A DNA stretch of 35,536 bases. It comes from Bdellovibrionales bacterium. GTDB taxonomy: Bacteria > Bdellovibrionota > Bdellovibrionia > Bdellovibrionales > UBA1609. A model generated the notes under the pieces. It saw only the letters and a list, made by a program, of their open reading frames with translations. It was not told the origin of the DNA and made no database searches. This document shows positions 24,984 through 33,417 of the stretch, in pieces. The stretch covers positions 1 to 35,536 of the forward strand of contig JALHOQ010000011.1 of NCBI GenBank assembly GCA_022842925.1. The letters run 5' to 3'. Position 1 is the stretch's first letter; each line of letters opens with the position of its first letter. Position numbers and translations under genes: made by a program.

Positions 24984-25640
24984 ATGTCTCAGGATTGCAA
25001 AATTGATCCCGTGGTCCAACAAATCCTGTCGAAAGTTCAGCCCAACCCGATGAACGAAAATGGCCTAAGCGATGAGGACCGCATAGAGAAAATCGCCGTC
25101 CACTTCCGCCATATCATGCTGACACTGGGTCTGGACCTAACGGACGACAGCCTGCAAGATACTCCCCGCCGGGTGGCTAAGATGTATGTGAAAGAGATTT
25201 TCTCAGGATTAAACCCAGGCAACTTCCCCAAAATGACTAGCATCGAAAACAAACTCGGCTATGACGAAATGGTGACGGTTAAGGACGTTTCAATCATCTC
25301 CGTGTGCGAGCATCACTTTGTCACAATCGACGGTCGCGCCACCATTTCCTATATTCCAAAAAACAAAGTGATCGGCCTATCCAAAATCAACCGCATCGCC
25401 AAATTCTTTGCCCGACGGCCCCAAGTACAGGAGCGTCTGACCAAGCAGATCGCGGACTGCCTGGTGGCGGTTTTAGAAACGGACAACGTCGCCGTGAGCA
25501 TTCGCGCCAAGCACTACTGCGTCGTCCAGCGCGGAGTCGAGGATGTCGCTTCAGAAACGGTGACGAGTGATCTTCGCGGTGCCTTCCGCGAAGACGCCCG
25601 GACGCGACAGGAGTTCTACAGCATTGAGGCGTCTAGATAG
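24984..25640 (+). CDS. folE: GTP cyclohydrolase I
   Basis: [66 protein letters not shown]. Confidence 0.96.
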
Positions 25641-26120
25641 ATGTACACCATTCACCTGGCCAAGGAGCCGTTCAAGTTTTCGTGCTCTCACTTCACCATT
25701 TTCTCCGAAAACCAAGCCGAGAGGCTGCATGGCCATAATTACCAGATGCGAGTGGATCTGACCCTGAACGAGATTGATCCCAAGCTGGGCATGGCCTTCG
25801 ACTTTAATCAGATAAAGCCGAAGATTCGCATGCTCTGCGATGAACTCGACGAGCGCATTCTGGTTCCAGAGAATTCGCCTTTTTTAAAAATTAGCAGCGA
25901 CGGCACCCAGTTAAATGTGTCTTTCGCACATAAGAAGTACTCCTTTCCTGAAGAAGACTGCCTGCGCCTACCCGTAGCCAATATCACGACCGAGGAGCTC
26001 TCGCGTTATATCTGCCGCAGACTGAGCGCCGCCATAGCCGGAGTGCCCAAATGGCTCGAACTTAGAGTCAATATTGAAGAGACGCGCGGGCAAAGCGTCA
26101 CCTTTTCCGAGAGCCGATGA
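25641..26120 (+). CDS. 6-pyruvoyl-tetrahydropterin synthase / 6-carboxytetrahydropterin synthase family protein (atypical active site)
   Basis: CSHFTIF...AERLHGHNYQMRVDL zinc-binding histidines; GMAFDFNQIK; ITTEELSRYI. Adjacent to folE. Confidence 0.85.
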   Translation: MYTIHLAKEPFKFSCSHFTIFSENQAERLHGHNYQMRVDLTLNEIDPKLGMAFDFNQIKPKIRMLCDELDERILVPENSPFLKISSDGTQLNVSFAHKKYSFPEEDCLRLPVANITTEELSRYICRRLSAAIAGVPKWLELRVNIEETRGQSVTFSESR

Positions 26121-26965
26121 ACTCTTCCGGCCACGGAATCCTACACATGGAAGTGACGGTACCGGGAAGCCTACGTGACTTTTTGCTCAAGAATTCTCCC
26201 GACGAAAACCGGGTCGATTTCTGGCTACATCACGGCTGCGTATACGTGAACGGCATCCGCCGCCGACAAGATATGAGCGTGGAGCCGCATCAGATCGTCC
26301 GCCTTCACTCCAATCCGAAAAGCTATCTATGGAAGAAAGAGCCGCTCAAAGACCGAATCGTTTTCGATCATCCTGAGTTTTTCGTCCTCGACAAGCCCGC
26401 CGGCCTGCCCGTTCATCCTACGCTCGACAACTATCTCGATAATGCGAAGTACGTTCTCGAGCAGGATTTGGGTTTTCCGATTTATTCCACGCACCGTCTG
26501 GACGTTCCGACTCAGGGTCTATTGATTTTCGCCAAGACTCCGCCGGCGCAGTCGCTGTTTAACAAGATGTTTGCGCATCGGCGGGTGGAGAAAATTTACC
26601 GCGCGCGCACTGAGCGCGCGGTGCCTTTGGGTGAACATGTTTTGTATTTGAATCCCGATACCCGGGTTCCGCGCAAGCATTCGTTCTCACCGCAAACCGG
26701 CTGGTGGGAATGTCGACTCGAGGTTTTAGTCAGCCAGGGGTCCGAAGAAAACTACATGAACACGATCCGCCTCATCACTGGCAAGACCCACCAAATTCGC
26801 GCACAGCTCAGCGCCCTCGGCGCGCCCATTATTGGCGACACGACCTACGGATATCAGGGAGGAGTTTCAGATTTGGCTCTAGAATGTTACTCGCTCAGTT
26901 TTACCTTCCGCACTCAGCCCATAACAGTCACTAGAAAAGCTACGTCCCCAAGCGGCCGGCGTTGA
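26117..26965 (+). CDS. RluA-family pseudouridine synthase
   Basis: VLDKPAGLPVHPT, YSTHRLDVPTQGLLIFAKT (HRLD catalytic), GKTHQIRAQLSALGAPIIGDTTYG; N-terminal S4-like region. Confidence 0.92.
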   Translation: MNSSGHGILHMEVTVPGSLRDFLLKNSPDENRVDFWLHHGCVYVNGIRRRQDMSVEPHQIVRLHSNPKSYLWKKEPLKDRIVFDHPEFFVLDKPAGLPVHPTLDNYLDNAKYVLEQDLGFPIYSTHRLDVPTQGLLIFAKTPPAQSLFNKMFAHRRVEKIYRARTERAVPLGEHVLYLNPDTRVPRKHSFSPQTGWWECRLEVLVSQGSEENYMNTIRLITGKTHQIRAQLSALGAPIIGDTTYGYQGGVSDLALECYSLSFTFRTQPITVTRKATSPSGRR

Positions 26966-27046: not shown

Positions 27047-28210
27047 TTAAAGACTCCGAATCTCATTCAAAAATTTCACCAACTGGAGGCGCGTGCCGCC
27101 GCGGGTGTCGCGCTCCAGGGCCACGTCGACTTCCGAACCTTTGGCCGAAATCAAAGTCGACACGACTTTGCTGATTTCCATACGATCCGCCAGCGAGGCG
27201 CGGGCCAGGCCGACAGCCGCTGTCACGTGAGCGGCCGCGTACGCCGTTCCGCTAACCGTCGTATATCGATTTCCGGGTTTGAGAGTTAAAATGTCCTCGC
27301 CGGGAGCCGCGGTCAGCACATCCTGGGAATTGGTATTAGCCAGAAGAGTCCGCTTACCCTCTTTGTCCAACGCCGTGACGACCAAGATGTTGTCATAGCT
27401 CTTCAAAAGCTTGTCGACTTCCGAAGTACCAAACTGCGCCATATCGTCGCCGGCCCCGACCACAATCGGAATTTTCGCGGTCTGAGCGCGATCGAGATAG
27501 CTCTTCAGAATCGAAATTTCCGCGCGAACCAAATCGCCTTCAGCGCGGTGACCTCCGACTTGAATCTGCGCCGTCTGCAGGTAAATCACATGCGGCTTCA
27601 GTTTCAATGCGGCATCGAGTGCGCCGGCCAGATTCGCAATCGATGTTTGGCCGTTATTGTCGATGTAACGAACCGGTAAGAGCGTTACATGCTTCATCAA
27701 ACCTGCGATCCCAACACCGTTACGTTGATTGGCGGCAATAATTCCCGCCGCCGCCGTGCCTGCGCCCTGACGATCGAAGGCAAAACCATCGCCATCGACT
27801 ACGTCATAACCAGCTACATCGTCGACTAGTCCGTTTTTATCGTCATCCTCGCGATTCACACCGATGCGATCAGCTATCGCCCGCTGGGTGATTTCCCGCT
27901 TATTGACTTCAACCTGACCACAGAGGTCTTCGTGGTTGTAGTCGATGCCGGTCGACAAGATCGCGATACGCACATTCGCGTTGCCAAGTACGGTCGGCGA
28001 CTTCAACACCTCAGCCGTAACTCCGACTTGATTCAGGGCCCATTGTTCCATGGCTTTGGGATCATCCTCATCCTTCTGATCGCAGGCCTCGACCTTCGGC
28101 ATCGGGTCGATATTCGGGCTCGGTTTGAACAGAACAACGATCTCCGTGCAGCCGATTAATCCCGAGCTCATTACGGCAAAAAAGCCGACTTTAGATAATA
28201 CGGATCGCAT
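27047..28210 (-). CDS. S8 (subtilisin-like) pseudoprotease lipoprotein; all catalytic residues substituted
   Basis: Lipobox GLIGC; subtilase fold motifs retained but AILSTGID (D to S), RQGAGTAAAG (H to A), VGAGDD (oxyanion N to D), SGTAYAAAHV (S to A). Confidence 0.88.
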   Translation of the reverse strand: MRSVLSKVGFFAVMSSGLIGCTEIVVLFKPSPNIDPMPKVEACDQKDEDDPKAMEQWALNQVGVTAEVLKSPTVLGNANVRIAILSTGIDYNHEDLCGQVEVNKREITQRAIADRIGVNREDDDKNGLVDDVAGYDVVDGDGFAFDRQGAGTAAAGIIAANQRNGVGIAGLMKHVTLLPVRYIDNNGQTSIANLAGALDAALKLKPHVIYLQTAQIQVGGHRAEGDLVRAEISILKSYLDRAQTAKIPIVVGAGDDMAQFGTSEVDKLLKSYDNILVVTALDKEGKRTLLANTNSQDVLTAAPGEDILTLKPGNRYTTVSGTAYAAAHVTAAVGLARASLADRMEISKVVSTLISAKGSEVDVALERDTRGGTRLQLVKFLNEIRSL

Positions 28211-28212
28211 AA

Positions 28213-30135
28213 TCAGTTCCCCTTTCCTGTTTCGTCAGAAATATAAGCCACTCGGTCGATACGGAATCCTTCCGAGTTAAACGTTGTGAACTTCTTCGAG
28301 CCGCCGCCGTCGCTGCCTTCCTCGGCATCGACCTGGCAAATATACTCGTCGCCCTTCTTTTCAACCGATGTGGCGCCTCGTCCCGAGCACTGGCTTTCGC
28401 TATTGCCCTTGAACGGCGAACGGTTGATCTTCTGCACGAGCGCATTCACAAAACGGACTCGAACTGTGTCGCCGGGAATTGCAGGTGACCAGAAGTCGTC
28501 GACCATGTTTTGCTCGATACGGGCGATCAGGCGATAGTCTTTGTCATAAAGATAGACACTGTCGTAAGGCTCTTCGATTTGCAGAAAATCGAAGTGCACT
28601 TTGACCGACTTGGCGCCTTCGACTTTGATCTCGTGACGAATATCGACCAGATCACTTTGGAAGCCGCGTTGATCGACCACATGCGCTTTTGTCTGCCAAA
28701 CGGGAGCCATGCTCGGACCCGCGAGCTGAGCTGTGACCGCCTTATAGGCATTGATGCGTCCATTGGACTTTGCCCGGCCCACGAGGGCTTCTCTGACGTC
28801 GGCGGTTTCGTTTATTAGACGAACCACTTCGGCCGCGTTACCCGCAAGACTGGGATTCGCCGCCATCATCAAAGCCGCGACGCCCGCGACGTAAGGAGTG
28901 GCCATCGATGTTCCCGACATAATGGCATAGGGCGGACGGCCCGCATCAACCAATCCTGTCGGATAAGTACTAATGATCGCCACGCCGGGCGCGAACACAT
29001 CGACCGACTCATGCCCGTAGTTCGAGAAATCAGCGGGAGCATCCATATTGTCGGAAGCGCCGACCGAGATCACGTTTTGGAATTTCTTACCGCGGAATTC
29101 GGTATTGCTGAAGTTCGACGGATAGTGCGGTTTGATGTCGTTGTTGGTGCCGTCGTTTCCTGCCGCGACCACGAACAGAATTCCCTTTTGTTCAATTTTG
29201 CGCAGTTCCGACTTGAACAGTTCGCCTTCGTCCTGAGTCCCGCCCCAGGAGTTCGACATGATATGGGCGCCGTTCTCACGGGCGTAACGGATCGCGCGAT
29301 AGGCGTCGACCGTAGTTCCACCGCCGCTCGCGGCCATGAACTTCAAGCACATGATTTTGACTTTCCAGTTCACTCCCGCCACACCGATACCGTCATTCGC
29401 TTTCGCACCGATCGCGCCCGCACAGTGGGTGCCGTGGCCTTGGTCGTCCATCGGATCCGGATCACCGGGCACACCCTTGTAACTGGTACGGCCGCTCGAC
29501 ACGAAATCGTAACCGTAAACATCGTCAATGTAGCCGTTGCCATCATCGTCCTTACCGGCGACGCCGCCATTGGCCGGCGCTTCTTTCTCATTCACCCACA
29601 TGTTTTCTTTAAGATCGGGGTGAGTGTAATCGCAACCGGTGTCGATTACGGCCACGACAACCTTGTCCGAGCCCTTGGTGACCTTGTTCCAAACCTGGAC
29701 GATGTCCATATCCGCGCCGCGCACGCCGGGTAATCCGTAAGGCGCGCTTTGGCCGATGTTGTTCAATGCCCATTGTTTAAAGAACAGTTTGTCAGTCGGC
29801 CATTCGGCCTTACGCAATGAGGCGAGCGGTTGCAGGATGCGATTCGGCTCCACGCTGTTCACTAGCGGAGCCACACCTTCCATCACCGAGCGCAAACCTT
29901 GATCGCCCTGGTATTTCACCTGGTAAAACTGATCGCCCGCGTCCAGCACGGTGATCGAGGCCTTGAGACCTTTTTCTTCCATGTAGGCTGTGACGGCCTC
30001 TTTATCGCCCGAAAAAATAAACTCATTGGCGACGACCTCGCTGGGCTGGAACTTGGGGACCGGCTTTATCGCCTGCTTTTGATTTGTGCACGCGGCGGTC
30101 ATGGCCAATAAGGCAATTAAAGTTAAACGTCTCAT
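28213..30135 (-). CDS. S8 family serine peptidase (subtilase) lipoprotein with C-terminal beta-sandwich domain
   Basis: Lipobox TAAC; VAVIDTGCDYTHPDL, QGHGTHCAGAIGA, VVAAGNDG, MSGTSMATPYVAGVAAL; C-terminal P/CUB-like region. Confidence 0.94.
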   Translation of the reverse strand: MRRLTLIALLAMTAACTNQKQAIKPVPKFQPSEVVANEFIFSGDKEAVTAYMEEKGLKASITVLDAGDQFYQVKYQGDQGLRSVMEGVAPLVNSVEPNRILQPLASLRKAEWPTDKLFFKQWALNNIGQSAPYGLPGVRGADMDIVQVWNKVTKGSDKVVVAVIDTGCDYTHPDLKENMWVNEKEAPANGGVAGKDDDGNGYIDDVYGYDFVSSGRTSYKGVPGDPDPMDDQGHGTHCAGAIGAKANDGIGVAGVNWKVKIMCLKFMAASGGGTTVDAYRAIRYARENGAHIMSNSWGGTQDEGELFKSELRKIEQKGILFVVAAGNDGTNNDIKPHYPSNFSNTEFRGKKFQNVISVGASDNMDAPADFSNYGHESVDVFAPGVAIISTYPTGLVDAGRPPYAIMSGTSMATPYVAGVAALMMAANPSLAGNAAEVVRLINETADVREALVGRAKSNGRINAYKAVTAQLAGPSMAPVWQTKAHVVDQRGFQSDLVDIRHEIKVEGAKSVKVHFDFLQIEEPYDSVYLYDKDYRLIARIEQNMVDDFWSPAIPGDTVRVRFVNALVQKINRSPFKGNSESQCSGRGATSVEKKGDEYICQVDAEEGSDGGGSKKFTTFNSEGFRIDRVAYISDETGKGN

Positions 30136-30917
30136 AGTTCCACCATCCTTTCATTCTGCACGCGCAAAATTCGCGCGATGCCTAAGAGCAGGTTGTTGCG
30201 GGTCAAAACAGCTTCGGTACCGGCAGGCTTGGCATTTAGGCCGCCCAGGAATTTCATTAGGTTCTGATCAAAGAGTTCCGACTCGATCGTAAACCGGCCC
30301 TCGATTTTCAAATTGGTCTTGTCCGACCAATCGCGAGAGACGTCGTAGGTGATGGTTTGTTTTTCGCGCAACAGTCGCTCCATATCCATGGAACTGGCGA
30401 AGTTTCCGTAAACCGTGAACGGCCCACTGATCTTCACTTGCGAGCCGAGCGAACAATCCACCCCCGGATCCATCGATCCACCACCGTCGCCGTAGTCATC
30501 GAAAACGGGCTGTGTGGCCTTAGCCGCTTTTTCGGCCGGTGATTTACATTTGCGAAATGTCTCTTCCACTTTGAACATCATGGTGACCGCTGTCGGCAGC
30601 GACAAGTGCACCATAACGGGGTAGCCGCGCTTGTGCTCCCAGTAATCCGTCCACTCACTCGACTTCACTTCGGCTTTAATCTGATTGTTGAATTCCACAC
30701 CAGTGACGATCGGAAACCGTTTGAGTTTGGCGGCGAGTCGCTCGAACAAAAAGCTGCGGAGCATTTGCTGTTCAGTTTCGGCCGATGCTTTTTTCACGAT
30801 CGTTGTGACGGTCGCGTAGCTTCCTGTGATGTTATAGTTCGTCTTTGTCTCTTCAGCTTGAACGCCCTGAGTCATTGCGACCAGAAAGCTGAATAAAATG
30901 AAATGCCGTGATGGCAT
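30132..30917 (-). CDS. Secreted protein of unknown function, first gene of the subtilase operon
   Basis: Signal peptide MPSRHFILFSFLVAMTQGVQA; GGGGGGAGA RBS; ATGA overlap with the downstream subtilase gene. Confidence 0.72.
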   Translation of the reverse strand: MPSRHFILFSFLVAMTQGVQAEETKTNYNITGSYATVTTIVKKASAETEQQMLRSFLFERLAAKLKRFPIVTGVEFNNQIKAEVKSSEWTDYWEHKRGYPVMVHLSLPTAVTMMFKVEETFRKCKSPAEKAAKATQPVFDDYGDGGGSMDPGVDCSLGSQVKISGPFTVYGNFASSMDMERLLREKQTITYDVSRDWSDKTNLKIEGRFTIESELFDQNLMKFLGGLNAKPAGTEAVLTRNNLLLGIARILRVQNERMVEL

Positions 30918-31131: not shown

Positions 31132-31950
31132 ATGCAACGTCATTGGTCAGTCGAATCACCAGCGGAATCCGTCGCGCGCTACGTGATTCAAGAATGCTCA
31201 TTGCGCCATGGCGCGCTCTGGCTAGGAAGCCGCGCGGCAGATGCGGCGCCCGCGGTCGATGCCGAGACTCAATTCGAAGGCTTGGCCGAACATGGTGTTC
31301 TGTTAACCGAGCGATTGCGGGAGCGCTTGATTGGCGTGAACGGATGGAGGGAGCTGGTCCGGCGCTTCCAATTAAAAGGCGTACGCGAAGACAGCCGGCT
31401 GGGACTTCTCGGTTGGCTTGATGCTCGCTATCCTCTTCACCTCACGCATAATCCGCCGACCCCTGAAGAAATGTTATCCCTACAATGCCGTGGCGAGCGC
31501 GTGGTCACTCTCCACCTCGAAGACAACGGCCCGATCGGACGGCACGCCGGACCTTTTGAATTCCTGCTGCATGATCTTGAACACGCGCACAAATTTTTTG
31601 GCGATCGGTCTTTCCCTGGGCAAAAGCGCTTTTTTAATCTGCTGCAAGAGGCGCTTGAAGCGGGAGTTTTTACGGAGCTGAGCCGGGATCGTGGTTTCGC
31701 CGTAGAATTCGAATACCTAATGGCCGACATGAATAGCCATCCACTCCACCTGATGAAATATCTGAAGGCCATCGTCCTCGAAGCGATGCCCGATAAAAGC
31801 GTGGCCGCACTCGACCGCTTTTGCGACGAACTCTTTGGCGTGTGGCAGCTTCCGCCACAAGTGTCTGAAGCCGCGCGCAAGATCAACTATCCCGCGCTCG
31901 AAAACAACGAAGCGCGATTGCGAGTCAGCGACTTTTTCAACTACAATTGA
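31132..31950 (+). CDS. Hypothetical protein with HDLEHAHKFF motif (possible metal-binding)
   Basis: 272-aa ORF with an 8-bp gap to the downstream oxygenase; no family confidently recognised. Confidence 0.7.
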   Translation: MQRHWSVESPAESVARYVIQECSLRHGALWLGSRAADAAPAVDAETQFEGLAEHGVLLTERLRERLIGVNGWRELVRRFQLKGVREDSRLGLLGWLDARYPLHLTHNPPTPEEMLSLQCRGERVVTLHLEDNGPIGRHAGPFEFLLHDLEHAHKFFGDRSFPGQKRFFNLLQEALEAGVFTELSRDRGFAVEFEYLMADMNSHPLHLMKYLKAIVLEAMPDKSVAALDRFCDELFGVWQLPPQVSEAARKINYPALENNEARLRVSDFFNYN

Positions 31951-31957
31951 GGTTTGT

Positions 31958-32569
31958 ATGAGCGTGAAACTGGTTTTTCCAACCTATATCTACACGGGCT
32001 CGCTGGGCGCGGCGGGGCGCAAGCTCAATAAACAGCTGAATAAAGAAATCCAGGTCTTGGCCCAAATCGATAAGGCCGGTCAGACCTGGAGCAAACGGAA
32101 TTATATTGGTGGCTACTCCAGTTACGGTTCGATGACTAAGCTGAACCAAACCTCACCCTACTTCGGCGAGCTCGAGCAGCGCCTTCGCTCGCACGTCAAA
32201 AAATTCGTGCGCAAACTGAATTGGGATTTGCTCGGGCGCAAACTCGAAATGACGACCTGCTGGGCCAACTCTATGGGCCATGCCACCTATCATACTTTGC
32301 ACTCCCATCCGCTCAGTGTTTTAAGCGGGGTCTACTATGTGGACGTGCCCGCCCACTCGAGTCCTTTCAAAGTCGAAGACCCGCGGCTGTCGTTTTTGAT
32401 GAACAGTCCTCCGCGCAAACCCACCGCGCCCGCCAACGAACAGAATTATTTGCTCATTCAACCGAAAGCCGCTGAATTTGTTCTGTTTGAAAGTTGGGTC
32501 CGCCACGAAGTCCCCCCGCACCGAGGCCAAAAAAACCGCCTGAGCGTGAGCTTCAACTATGAATTCTAA
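31958..32569 (+). CDS. Putative 2OG-Fe(II) oxygenase (TIGR02466-like)
   Basis: ATCWANSMGHATYHTLHSHPLSVLSGVYYVDVP...LSFLMNSP; FVLFESWVRHEVPPHRGQKNRLSVSFNYEF. Confidence 0.82.
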   Translation: MSVKLVFPTYIYTGSLGAAGRKLNKQLNKEIQVLAQIDKAGQTWSKRNYIGGYSSYGSMTKLNQTSPYFGELEQRLRSHVKKFVRKLNWDLLGRKLEMTTCWANSMGHATYHTLHSHPLSVLSGVYYVDVPAHSSPFKVEDPRLSFLMNSPPRKPTAPANEQNYLLIQPKAAEFVLFESWVRHEVPPHRGQKNRLSVSFNYEF

Positions 32570-32643: not shown

Positions 32644-33417
32644 TTGTTTAGCGTCGGTGTGAGCTTGCAGGACTTGATCGGCGTGACCTGGGGCTTTCGC
32701 AATCCGCAGAAGGAAGAAGACAAGCTACAAAAAGGCGGAACGGAATATGAGGATTGGCGGTTAAATTTCGCGTTCAAACAGTTTCATGTGAAATTGAATT
32801 ACGCCCGCTTCAAGGGTTTTTTTATCGAGGACTCACGCGAAGTCAATCCGAGCTGGAATGAAGGCGACCCTTTTTATCAAAAGCCCGAGCTGATTTCACA
32901 AAACATCGGCGTCAACTTCACCTGGATTATTAACCCCGATGATTTCTCGCTCGTGGCCGCCTACGACCAAACCGAGCGGCAAGAGAAATCAGGTGGCAGC
33001 TTCCTGATTGGGGCGGCCGCTTCGGAAACTTTGTTTGAAGACCAAGACCAAATCATTCCCACCAATGTGCAAGGCCCTTTCGGGCAACACCAGCATATCA
33101 CCGAAGGCCGCTTTCAATCTTTCACGGTTAAAGCCGGTTACGGTTACACATTCGTGTTGGCTAAAAAATACTTCGCCGCTCTTTCAGGGCAGTTCGGCTT
33201 CGGACGTCAGTATATGAAAATCAAAGGCACTGACTTCTCGGACTCGACCTGGGCCCCGGCCAAAAAGGGCGATCTGATTGTCTCGTTAGGATACAATGGC
33301 GACGACTATTACTCAGGCCTCTTCGCCTCGGGCGATCAGACCGACTATAAGACCGGCGAAATGGAAATTGCGGTGAACCAATGGATGGTTCGGGCCTATT
33401 TCGGCTTTCGACTGTAA
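32644..33417 (+). CDS. DUF4421 family protein, apparently N-terminally truncated (possible pseudogene)
   Basis: LISQNIGVNFTWIINPDDFSLVAAYDQTERQEKSGGSFLIG is typical of DUF4421. There is no signal peptide and no ATG start; the frame is open only back to 32608, inside the hairpin. Confidence 0.75.
   Translation: MFSVGVSLQDLIGVTWGFRNPQKEEDKLQKGGTEYEDWRLNFAFKQFHVKLNYARFKGFFIEDSREVNPSWNEGDPFYQKPELISQNIGVNFTWIINPDDFSLVAAYDQTERQEKSGGSFLIGAAASETLFEDQDQIIPTNVQGPFGQHQHITEGRFQSFTVKAGYGYTFVLAKKYFAALSGQFGFGRQYMKIKGTDFSDSTWAPAKKGDLIVSLGYNGDDYYSGLFASGDQTDYKTGEMEIAVNQWMVRAYFGFRL

Follow-up and report, generated by a model that had tools for sequence, protein, structure and literature searches.

The window analysed here is a stretch of 35,536 nucleotides from a Bdellovibrionales bacterium (GenBank assembly GCA_022842925.1, contig JALHOQ010000011.1, positions 1 to 35,536), part of contig C11 of an assembly of 3.66 Mb in 320 contigs. 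It carries three adjacent genes, termed g1, g2, and g3, which probably represent a real, conserved three-gene system pairing a subtilase with a pseudo-subtilase, and one that is apparently undescribed. The middle gene encodes a subtilase of the active type, the last gene a predicted lipoprotein of the same Pfam family that has lost its catalytic residues, and the first gene a secreted accessory protein. The features are:

30132-30917, minus strand: g1, open reading frame of 261 amino acids, with its ATG at 30917
30132-30135, minus strand: ATGA, 4 bp shared by the stop of g1 and the start of g2, read from the sequence
28213-30135, minus strand: g2, active-type S8 subtilase of 640 amino acids
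28211-28212, minus strand: 2-bp gap between g2 and g3, read from the sequence
27047-28210, minus strand: g3, predicted pseudo-subtilase lipoprotein of 387 amino acids

Coordinates, strand, and spacing are exactly those that an earlier note on this DNA had given, and the tight same-strand coupling that it described is confirmed by the 4-bp overlap and the 2-bp gap. The same 4-bp g1/g2 overlap is present at three other loci (L092, L093, and L124). Spacing between g2 and g3 outside the window ranges from -32 to 57 bp, and intergenic spacing across all trio loci, in which the genes always occupy one strand, ranges from -32 to 88 bp.

Conservation and distribution of the trio

When g3 was used as the query in a pattern-based search over 84,980 species genomes, three matches stood far above the rest (L009, L010, and L011); all are from Planctomycetota, L010 being from Candidatus Uabimicrobium amorphum, and each lies within a full trio. 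Searches with g1 and g3 in the window's phylum, Bdellovibrionota, and in Planctomycetota added loci in genomes G009 (L092), G030 (L093), G039 (L094), G007 (L124), G440 (L125), and G377 (L126). There are thus nine complete g1-g2-g3 loci with the order kept (the window and eight others), plus one that is truncated, and they span both phyla. The earlier note's reading would have fallen if the trio were confined to this genome, and the recurrence at eight further complete loci shows that it is not. At L093, the N terminus of g3 (signal peptide, Cys, and KP...LDPLP) begins 2 bp after g2, but the likeness to g3 ends after about 36 residues, near the contig end (L093:1-237); this break may reflect a truncated or mis-assembled contig. 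The g1 of L094 has a run of X, that is, masked or unknown bases, close to its C terminus.

To gauge the distribution, 369 genomes were sampled from the window's phylum, 392 from Planctomycetota, and 280 from two further phyla. In a tree of subtilases, members of the window's phylum interleave with Bdellovibrionota records, which fits its assignment. Within this phylum, five genomes score 1007, 1005, 997, 929, and 618 bits with a g2 profile and no other exceeds 494 bits, and a g3 profile scores 598, 628, 584, and 366 bits, with the next best match at 183. The five genomes with a member of the g2 clade are exactly those that have g3 or a g3 fragment. A g1 is detected by profile in four of these five; that of G007 is assigned by position only. 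In the two further phyla (198 genomes in the phylum of G773 and 82 in that of G770), the g3 profile found only frames of at least 572 amino acids scoring no more than 224 bits, and these long frames are taken to be ordinary subtilases. As side observations, relatives found with the g2 profile at E <= 1e-110 occur in 246 of the 369 genomes, subtilases related to g2 that lack a g3 being widespread in the phylum (mostly frames of 540-620 amino acids, at most 494 bits), and one genome without the trio has a marginal g1 profile match (E 9.8e-4; G295:C10:129416-129640, L098).

The genes that flank the trio are not common to the loci and vary from one to the next, which argues that the trio itself is the unit. 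Because distant bacteria carry the three genes in one and the same order, it is probably a genuine multi-part protease system, and the arrangement that the earlier note had proposed, an active subtilase, a dead subtilase, and a secreted accessory protein in a conserved operon-like trio, is supported.

An active-type subtilase and its proposed inactive partner

The g2 protein matches PF00082 (Peptidase_S8) over residues 157-446 with 207 bits, against a gathering cut-off of 21.8, and has the catalytic residues D165, H234, N327 (the oxyanion Asn), and S410. The D/H/N/S set is intact at these columns in all ten trio loci. Near its N terminus lies a lipobox-like TAAC with Cys16 in the window protein, and a lipobox is found in the g2 of all five members of the window's phylum. 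Between this Cys and the catalytic Asp are about 150 residues that look like a prodomain; in L010, the corresponding region has a weak Fervidolysin_NPro-like match that falls below cut-off. The g2 protein is predicted to process itself and to act as the catalytic subunit of the system. From about residue 475, g2 continues into a C-terminal domain with an insertion, which has no Pfam match; a profile of this tail weakly matches residues 221-313 of Kremen (E 0.015), which we take to be its CUB domain, and the tail is perhaps CUB-like. It was considered as a trio-specific domain and rejected, since similar tails occur in other genomes on subtilase-length open frames, and for this reason it is unusable as a marker of the trio. 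Some genomes of the window's phylum contain subtilases with such a C-terminal CUB-like tail.

The g3 protein also matches PF00082 above the same cut-off, with 83.5 bits, but the catalytic columns of the window protein read S/A/D/A in place of D/H/N/S. Among the nine g3 orthologues, the Asp and the His are replaced in every one and the Ser in eight, being kept in L124 only; elsewhere the Asp has become S or G, the His A, S, Y, or V, and the Ser A, H, or N. All 98 comparison subtilases aligned alongside have D/H/N/S, and seven of them belong to the genome of the window. The g3 protein retains core motifs and a calcium-loop-like DDDxxG. Its signal peptide region has the lipobox-like LIGC, with Cys21 in the window protein, and this Cys lies at one aligned position in all nine orthologues; lipidation of g3 is predicted. 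There is no prodomain: about 35 residues separate Cys21 from the QW motif, and the distance from the Cys to the triad column is about 64 amino acids in g3 versus 149 in g2. Mean pairwise identity is 43% among g3 proteins and 44% among g2 proteins, and the two sets of values are correlated (r = 0.95); because the identities match and track those of g2, the dead copy g3 is under constraint.

Origin of the pair

The earlier note had read the pair as consistent with duplication, since both proteins share a QWALNNIG/QWALNQVG motif. The weight of this QWALN.(I/V)G-like motif as evidence for duplication is lessened by the finding that 23 of the 98 other subtilases match a permissive form of it; it occurs loosely within this part of the S8 family and is by itself no sign of duplication. 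Nor is duplication supported, as stated, by the profile scores or the tree. A g3 profile gives the window g2 about 102 bits, well under the 183 bits reached by the highest-scoring ordinary subtilases, and in the free tree the g2 proteins make up one clade and the g3 proteins another, but the two are not sisters. However, a tree constrained to a joint g2 and g3 clade is not rejected by the approximately unbiased (AU) test (p = 0.54), so that duplication of g2 into g3 is possible.

Within both families, four Planctomycetota members and the members of the window's group fall in separate clades, and L124 and L126 are outside those clades or uncertain. Since L124 comes from the window's family yet lies outside the window's clade, and the distribution is patchy, horizontal transfer or loss is suggested. 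Two observations on other subtilases may be added: the window's genome has 22 PF00082 matches, corresponding to about 20 subtilase genes, and neighbouring pairs of subtilase genes at L046, L055, L074, and L107 have all their catalytic residues intact.

The secreted accessory protein

The g1 protein of the window has an ordinary signal peptide of about residues 1-21 (VQA|EE), and the g1 proteins of all loci are, judged by their sequences, secreted and not lipidated. Assignment to a named family was tried and rejected, as searches of Pfam and NCBIfam gave no g1 match over cut-off. With a mean identity of 21%, g1 is the least conserved member of the trio.

An AlphaFold2 model of the L010 g1 (mean predicted local distance difference test score (pLDDT) 68.1; predicted template modelling score 0.67) was compared with the PDB using Foldseek. 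The best matches are Ups1/PRELI, Bet v1-like, and START proteins, with E values from 0.0012 (none <= 0.001), probabilities up to 1.00, and template modelling scores of 0.2-0.5; nearly all of the best 50 are of the START/Bet v1/PRELI kind, and the remainder are structural-genomics entries. The most divergent g1, that of L126, has a weak Polyketide_cyc match below cut-off (E 0.048). The predicted fold of the L010 protein thus resembles the SRPBCC superfamily, which includes START, Bet v1, and PRELI/Ups1, with sequence matches below cut-off. The model of the window g1, built from a shallow alignment, is uninformative (pLDDT 36.9). Consequently, g1 is possibly SRPBCC/START-like, a lead rather than a result, and one that would reach the window g1 by analogy with the L010 model.

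A proposed mechanism and its alternatives

We give about an even chance to the reading that the products of the trio form a subtilase complex, either secreted or lipid-anchored, with g3 as the lipid-anchored dead partner of g2 and g1 as an accessory factor. The three genes would then specify one envelope or secreted protease system, with g2 as its self-processing catalytic subunit and g3 as a dedicated non-catalytic partner tethered to the membrane through its N-terminal lipid. Where g2 has a lipobox of its own, the Cys precedes the prodomain, so that normal prodomain cleavage would free the catalytic domain of g2 from its own lipid; because g3 has neither a prodomain nor a triad, its anchor would persist. 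The nearest precedent for this reasoning is dentilisin, described below. Thus g3 might hold g2, regulate it, or both, as an anchor, a scaffold, or an allosteric or inhibitory subunit. The g1 protein would be a soluble secreted factor for folding, export, or control of g2 and g3, perhaps acting through a START/Bet v1-like ligand pocket. Lipidation, the formation of the complex, the anchoring or regulation by g3, and the role of g1 are what we infer from these features.

Several observations weigh against this scheme. Lipidation of g2 appears not to be conserved: among the five Planctomycetota g2 proteins, four have no clear lipobox and that of L010 is doubtful. The lipobox assignments follow from sequence rules alone, and although eight of the nine g3 proteins fit the standard pattern, that of L010 is atypical at position -3. 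Two lipoproteins, as the earlier note claimed, are indicated by lipobox in the window and its relatives; across all loci, the Cys is kept in g3 alone. Identity between g1 proteins of the main groups is just 12-21%, and an hhalign comparison of g1 across the phyla (A8 against A9) gives E 0.07, so that homology is not established (A8 against L126 gives E 0.0006, with a probability of 28%); perhaps g1 is several proteins that share one position. Finally, the trio is rare, being found in five of 369 genomes from the phylum of the window and in five of the 392 sampled from Planctomycetota.

A second reading, which we regard as unlikely, is a signal-gated switch like that of CspC, CspA, and CspB, in which g3, with or without g1, senses a ligand and then releases or activates g2, anchoring being secondary. 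Pseudo-subtilases operate in this way in the working model for Clostridioides difficile (PMC6464247, PMC6636752), g3 retains the calcium-loop-like DDDxxG and the core motifs, and the L010 g1 model resembles folds of which most bind hydrophobic ligands. However, the spore context is absent here, CspC retains a prodomain whereas g3 has none, and the g1 fold derives from a single, medium-confidence Planctomycetota model (pLDDT 68). A bolder form, that g2 is gated by a secreted START-like g1 and the lipid-anchored g3, which together respond to a lipid or another hydrophobic signal, and that the cassette has been transferred between Planctomycetota and Bdellovibrionota-like bacteria, strikes us as rather improbable; if true, it would define a kind of envelope protease machine not described before.

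It is also doubtful, to a similar degree, that g3 serves as a dedicated inhibitor or immunity-like protector, blocking g2 at the producer's membrane until g2 is released. The tight coupling and co-occurrence of the genes would fit this role, as would a Cys that keeps g3 cell-bound while g2 could be shed, but subtilases are normally held by their own prodomain, which g2 apparently has, a whole subtilase-fold inhibitor would be unusual, and there is no sign of toxicity. Of low probability, too, is a role for g3 in adhesion or in binding prey or substrates, by which targets would be presented to g2 in hosts that live as predators or engulf other cells: the hosts of the trio include Bdellovibrionota and Ca. 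Uabimicrobium amorphum, an engulfer of bacteria (PMC11032199), but most genomes of the window's phylum lack the trio, including all of f8, the best-sampled family of the order. That g3 is a decaying ex-protease with no function of its own is highly improbable, since, despite the loss of all three triad residues in the window protein, its frames are open, its conservation equals that of g2, its order is kept in two phyla, and its Cys position is invariant; a reading of g3 as a pseudogene is accordingly rejected.

Surroundings of the trio

Scans for promoters and terminators gave matches not above chance expectation. A foreign origin judged by composition was considered and set aside, as the trio-bearing stretches have 51-55% G+C, equal to the window value. 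On one side of the trio lie adjoining genes for GTP cyclohydrolase I and 6-pyruvoyl tetrahydropterin synthase (24984-26120), followed by a gene for an RluA-type pseudouridine synthase (26117-26965). On the other side is a divergent open reading frame of 272 amino acids (31132-31950) that has no Pfam or NCBIfam match; beyond it are a gene resembling those of 2OG-Fe(II) oxygenases (31835-32569) and one for a DUF4421 protein (32644-33417).

Comparison with known systems

The earlier note knew of no described system with this architecture. A literature search of open-licence PMC articles likewise found no description of the trio; the principle, however, has precedents. Pseudoproteases have been studied mostly in eukaryotes, and the main bacterial subtilase case found is that of the Csp proteins of C. 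difficile (PMC6464247), whose pseudoproteases act together with active CspB (PMC6464247, PMC6636752). Like the trio, CspB/CspA/CspC combines one active subtilase with dead partners in one transcription unit, and the dead partners regulate the active subtilase (PMC6464247, PMC6636752). The Csp system, however, is spore-specific, and CspC, which is described as soluble, has a jelly-roll domain and a prodomain that is not cleaved off; here, g3 has no prodomain and has a lipobox-like Cys. The NCBIfam models for CspC and CspBA are matched far below cut-off (g2, 27.7 against 675 and 26.1 against 1250; g3, 23.7 against 1250).

Dentilisin of oral treponemes, encoded by prcB-prcA-prtP, resembles the proposed system in being a surface subtilase complex from a three-gene operon, with a small secreted accessory encoded first and lipid-anchored non-catalytic subunits; the acylated N terminus of PrtP is released, and the accessory lipoproteins have been proposed to anchor the complex (PMC8167434). 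Its order is accessory-accessory-protease, whereas that of the trio is accessory-protease-pseudoprotease in every locus. None of its partners is described as a pseudo-subtilase, and PrcB, a lipoprotein, has homologues in oral treponemes only. Against the PrtP equivalog NF033595 (cut-off 300), g2 scores 116 bits and g3 36.6.

The closest solved relative by sequence is deseasin MCP-01 (PDB 3vv3; E 8e-67 for g2 and 5e-25 for g3), but the match is confined to S8, and g3 lacks the triad. We are not aware of a dead partner gene accompanying deseasin.

Csp and dentilisin are precedents in principle and not by family, and the system would be a variation on the known principle of pairing active and dead subtilases. 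The trio is apparently an independent instance of such a pairing, probably lipid-anchored and coupled to a third protein, with a g3 that lacks a prodomain. Natural variants for its dissection are at hand in the one g3 that retains its Ser and in g2 proteins with or without a lipobox of their own. As a defined genetic unit with several homologous loci, it makes the role of a dead subtilase for a live one testable outside spores.

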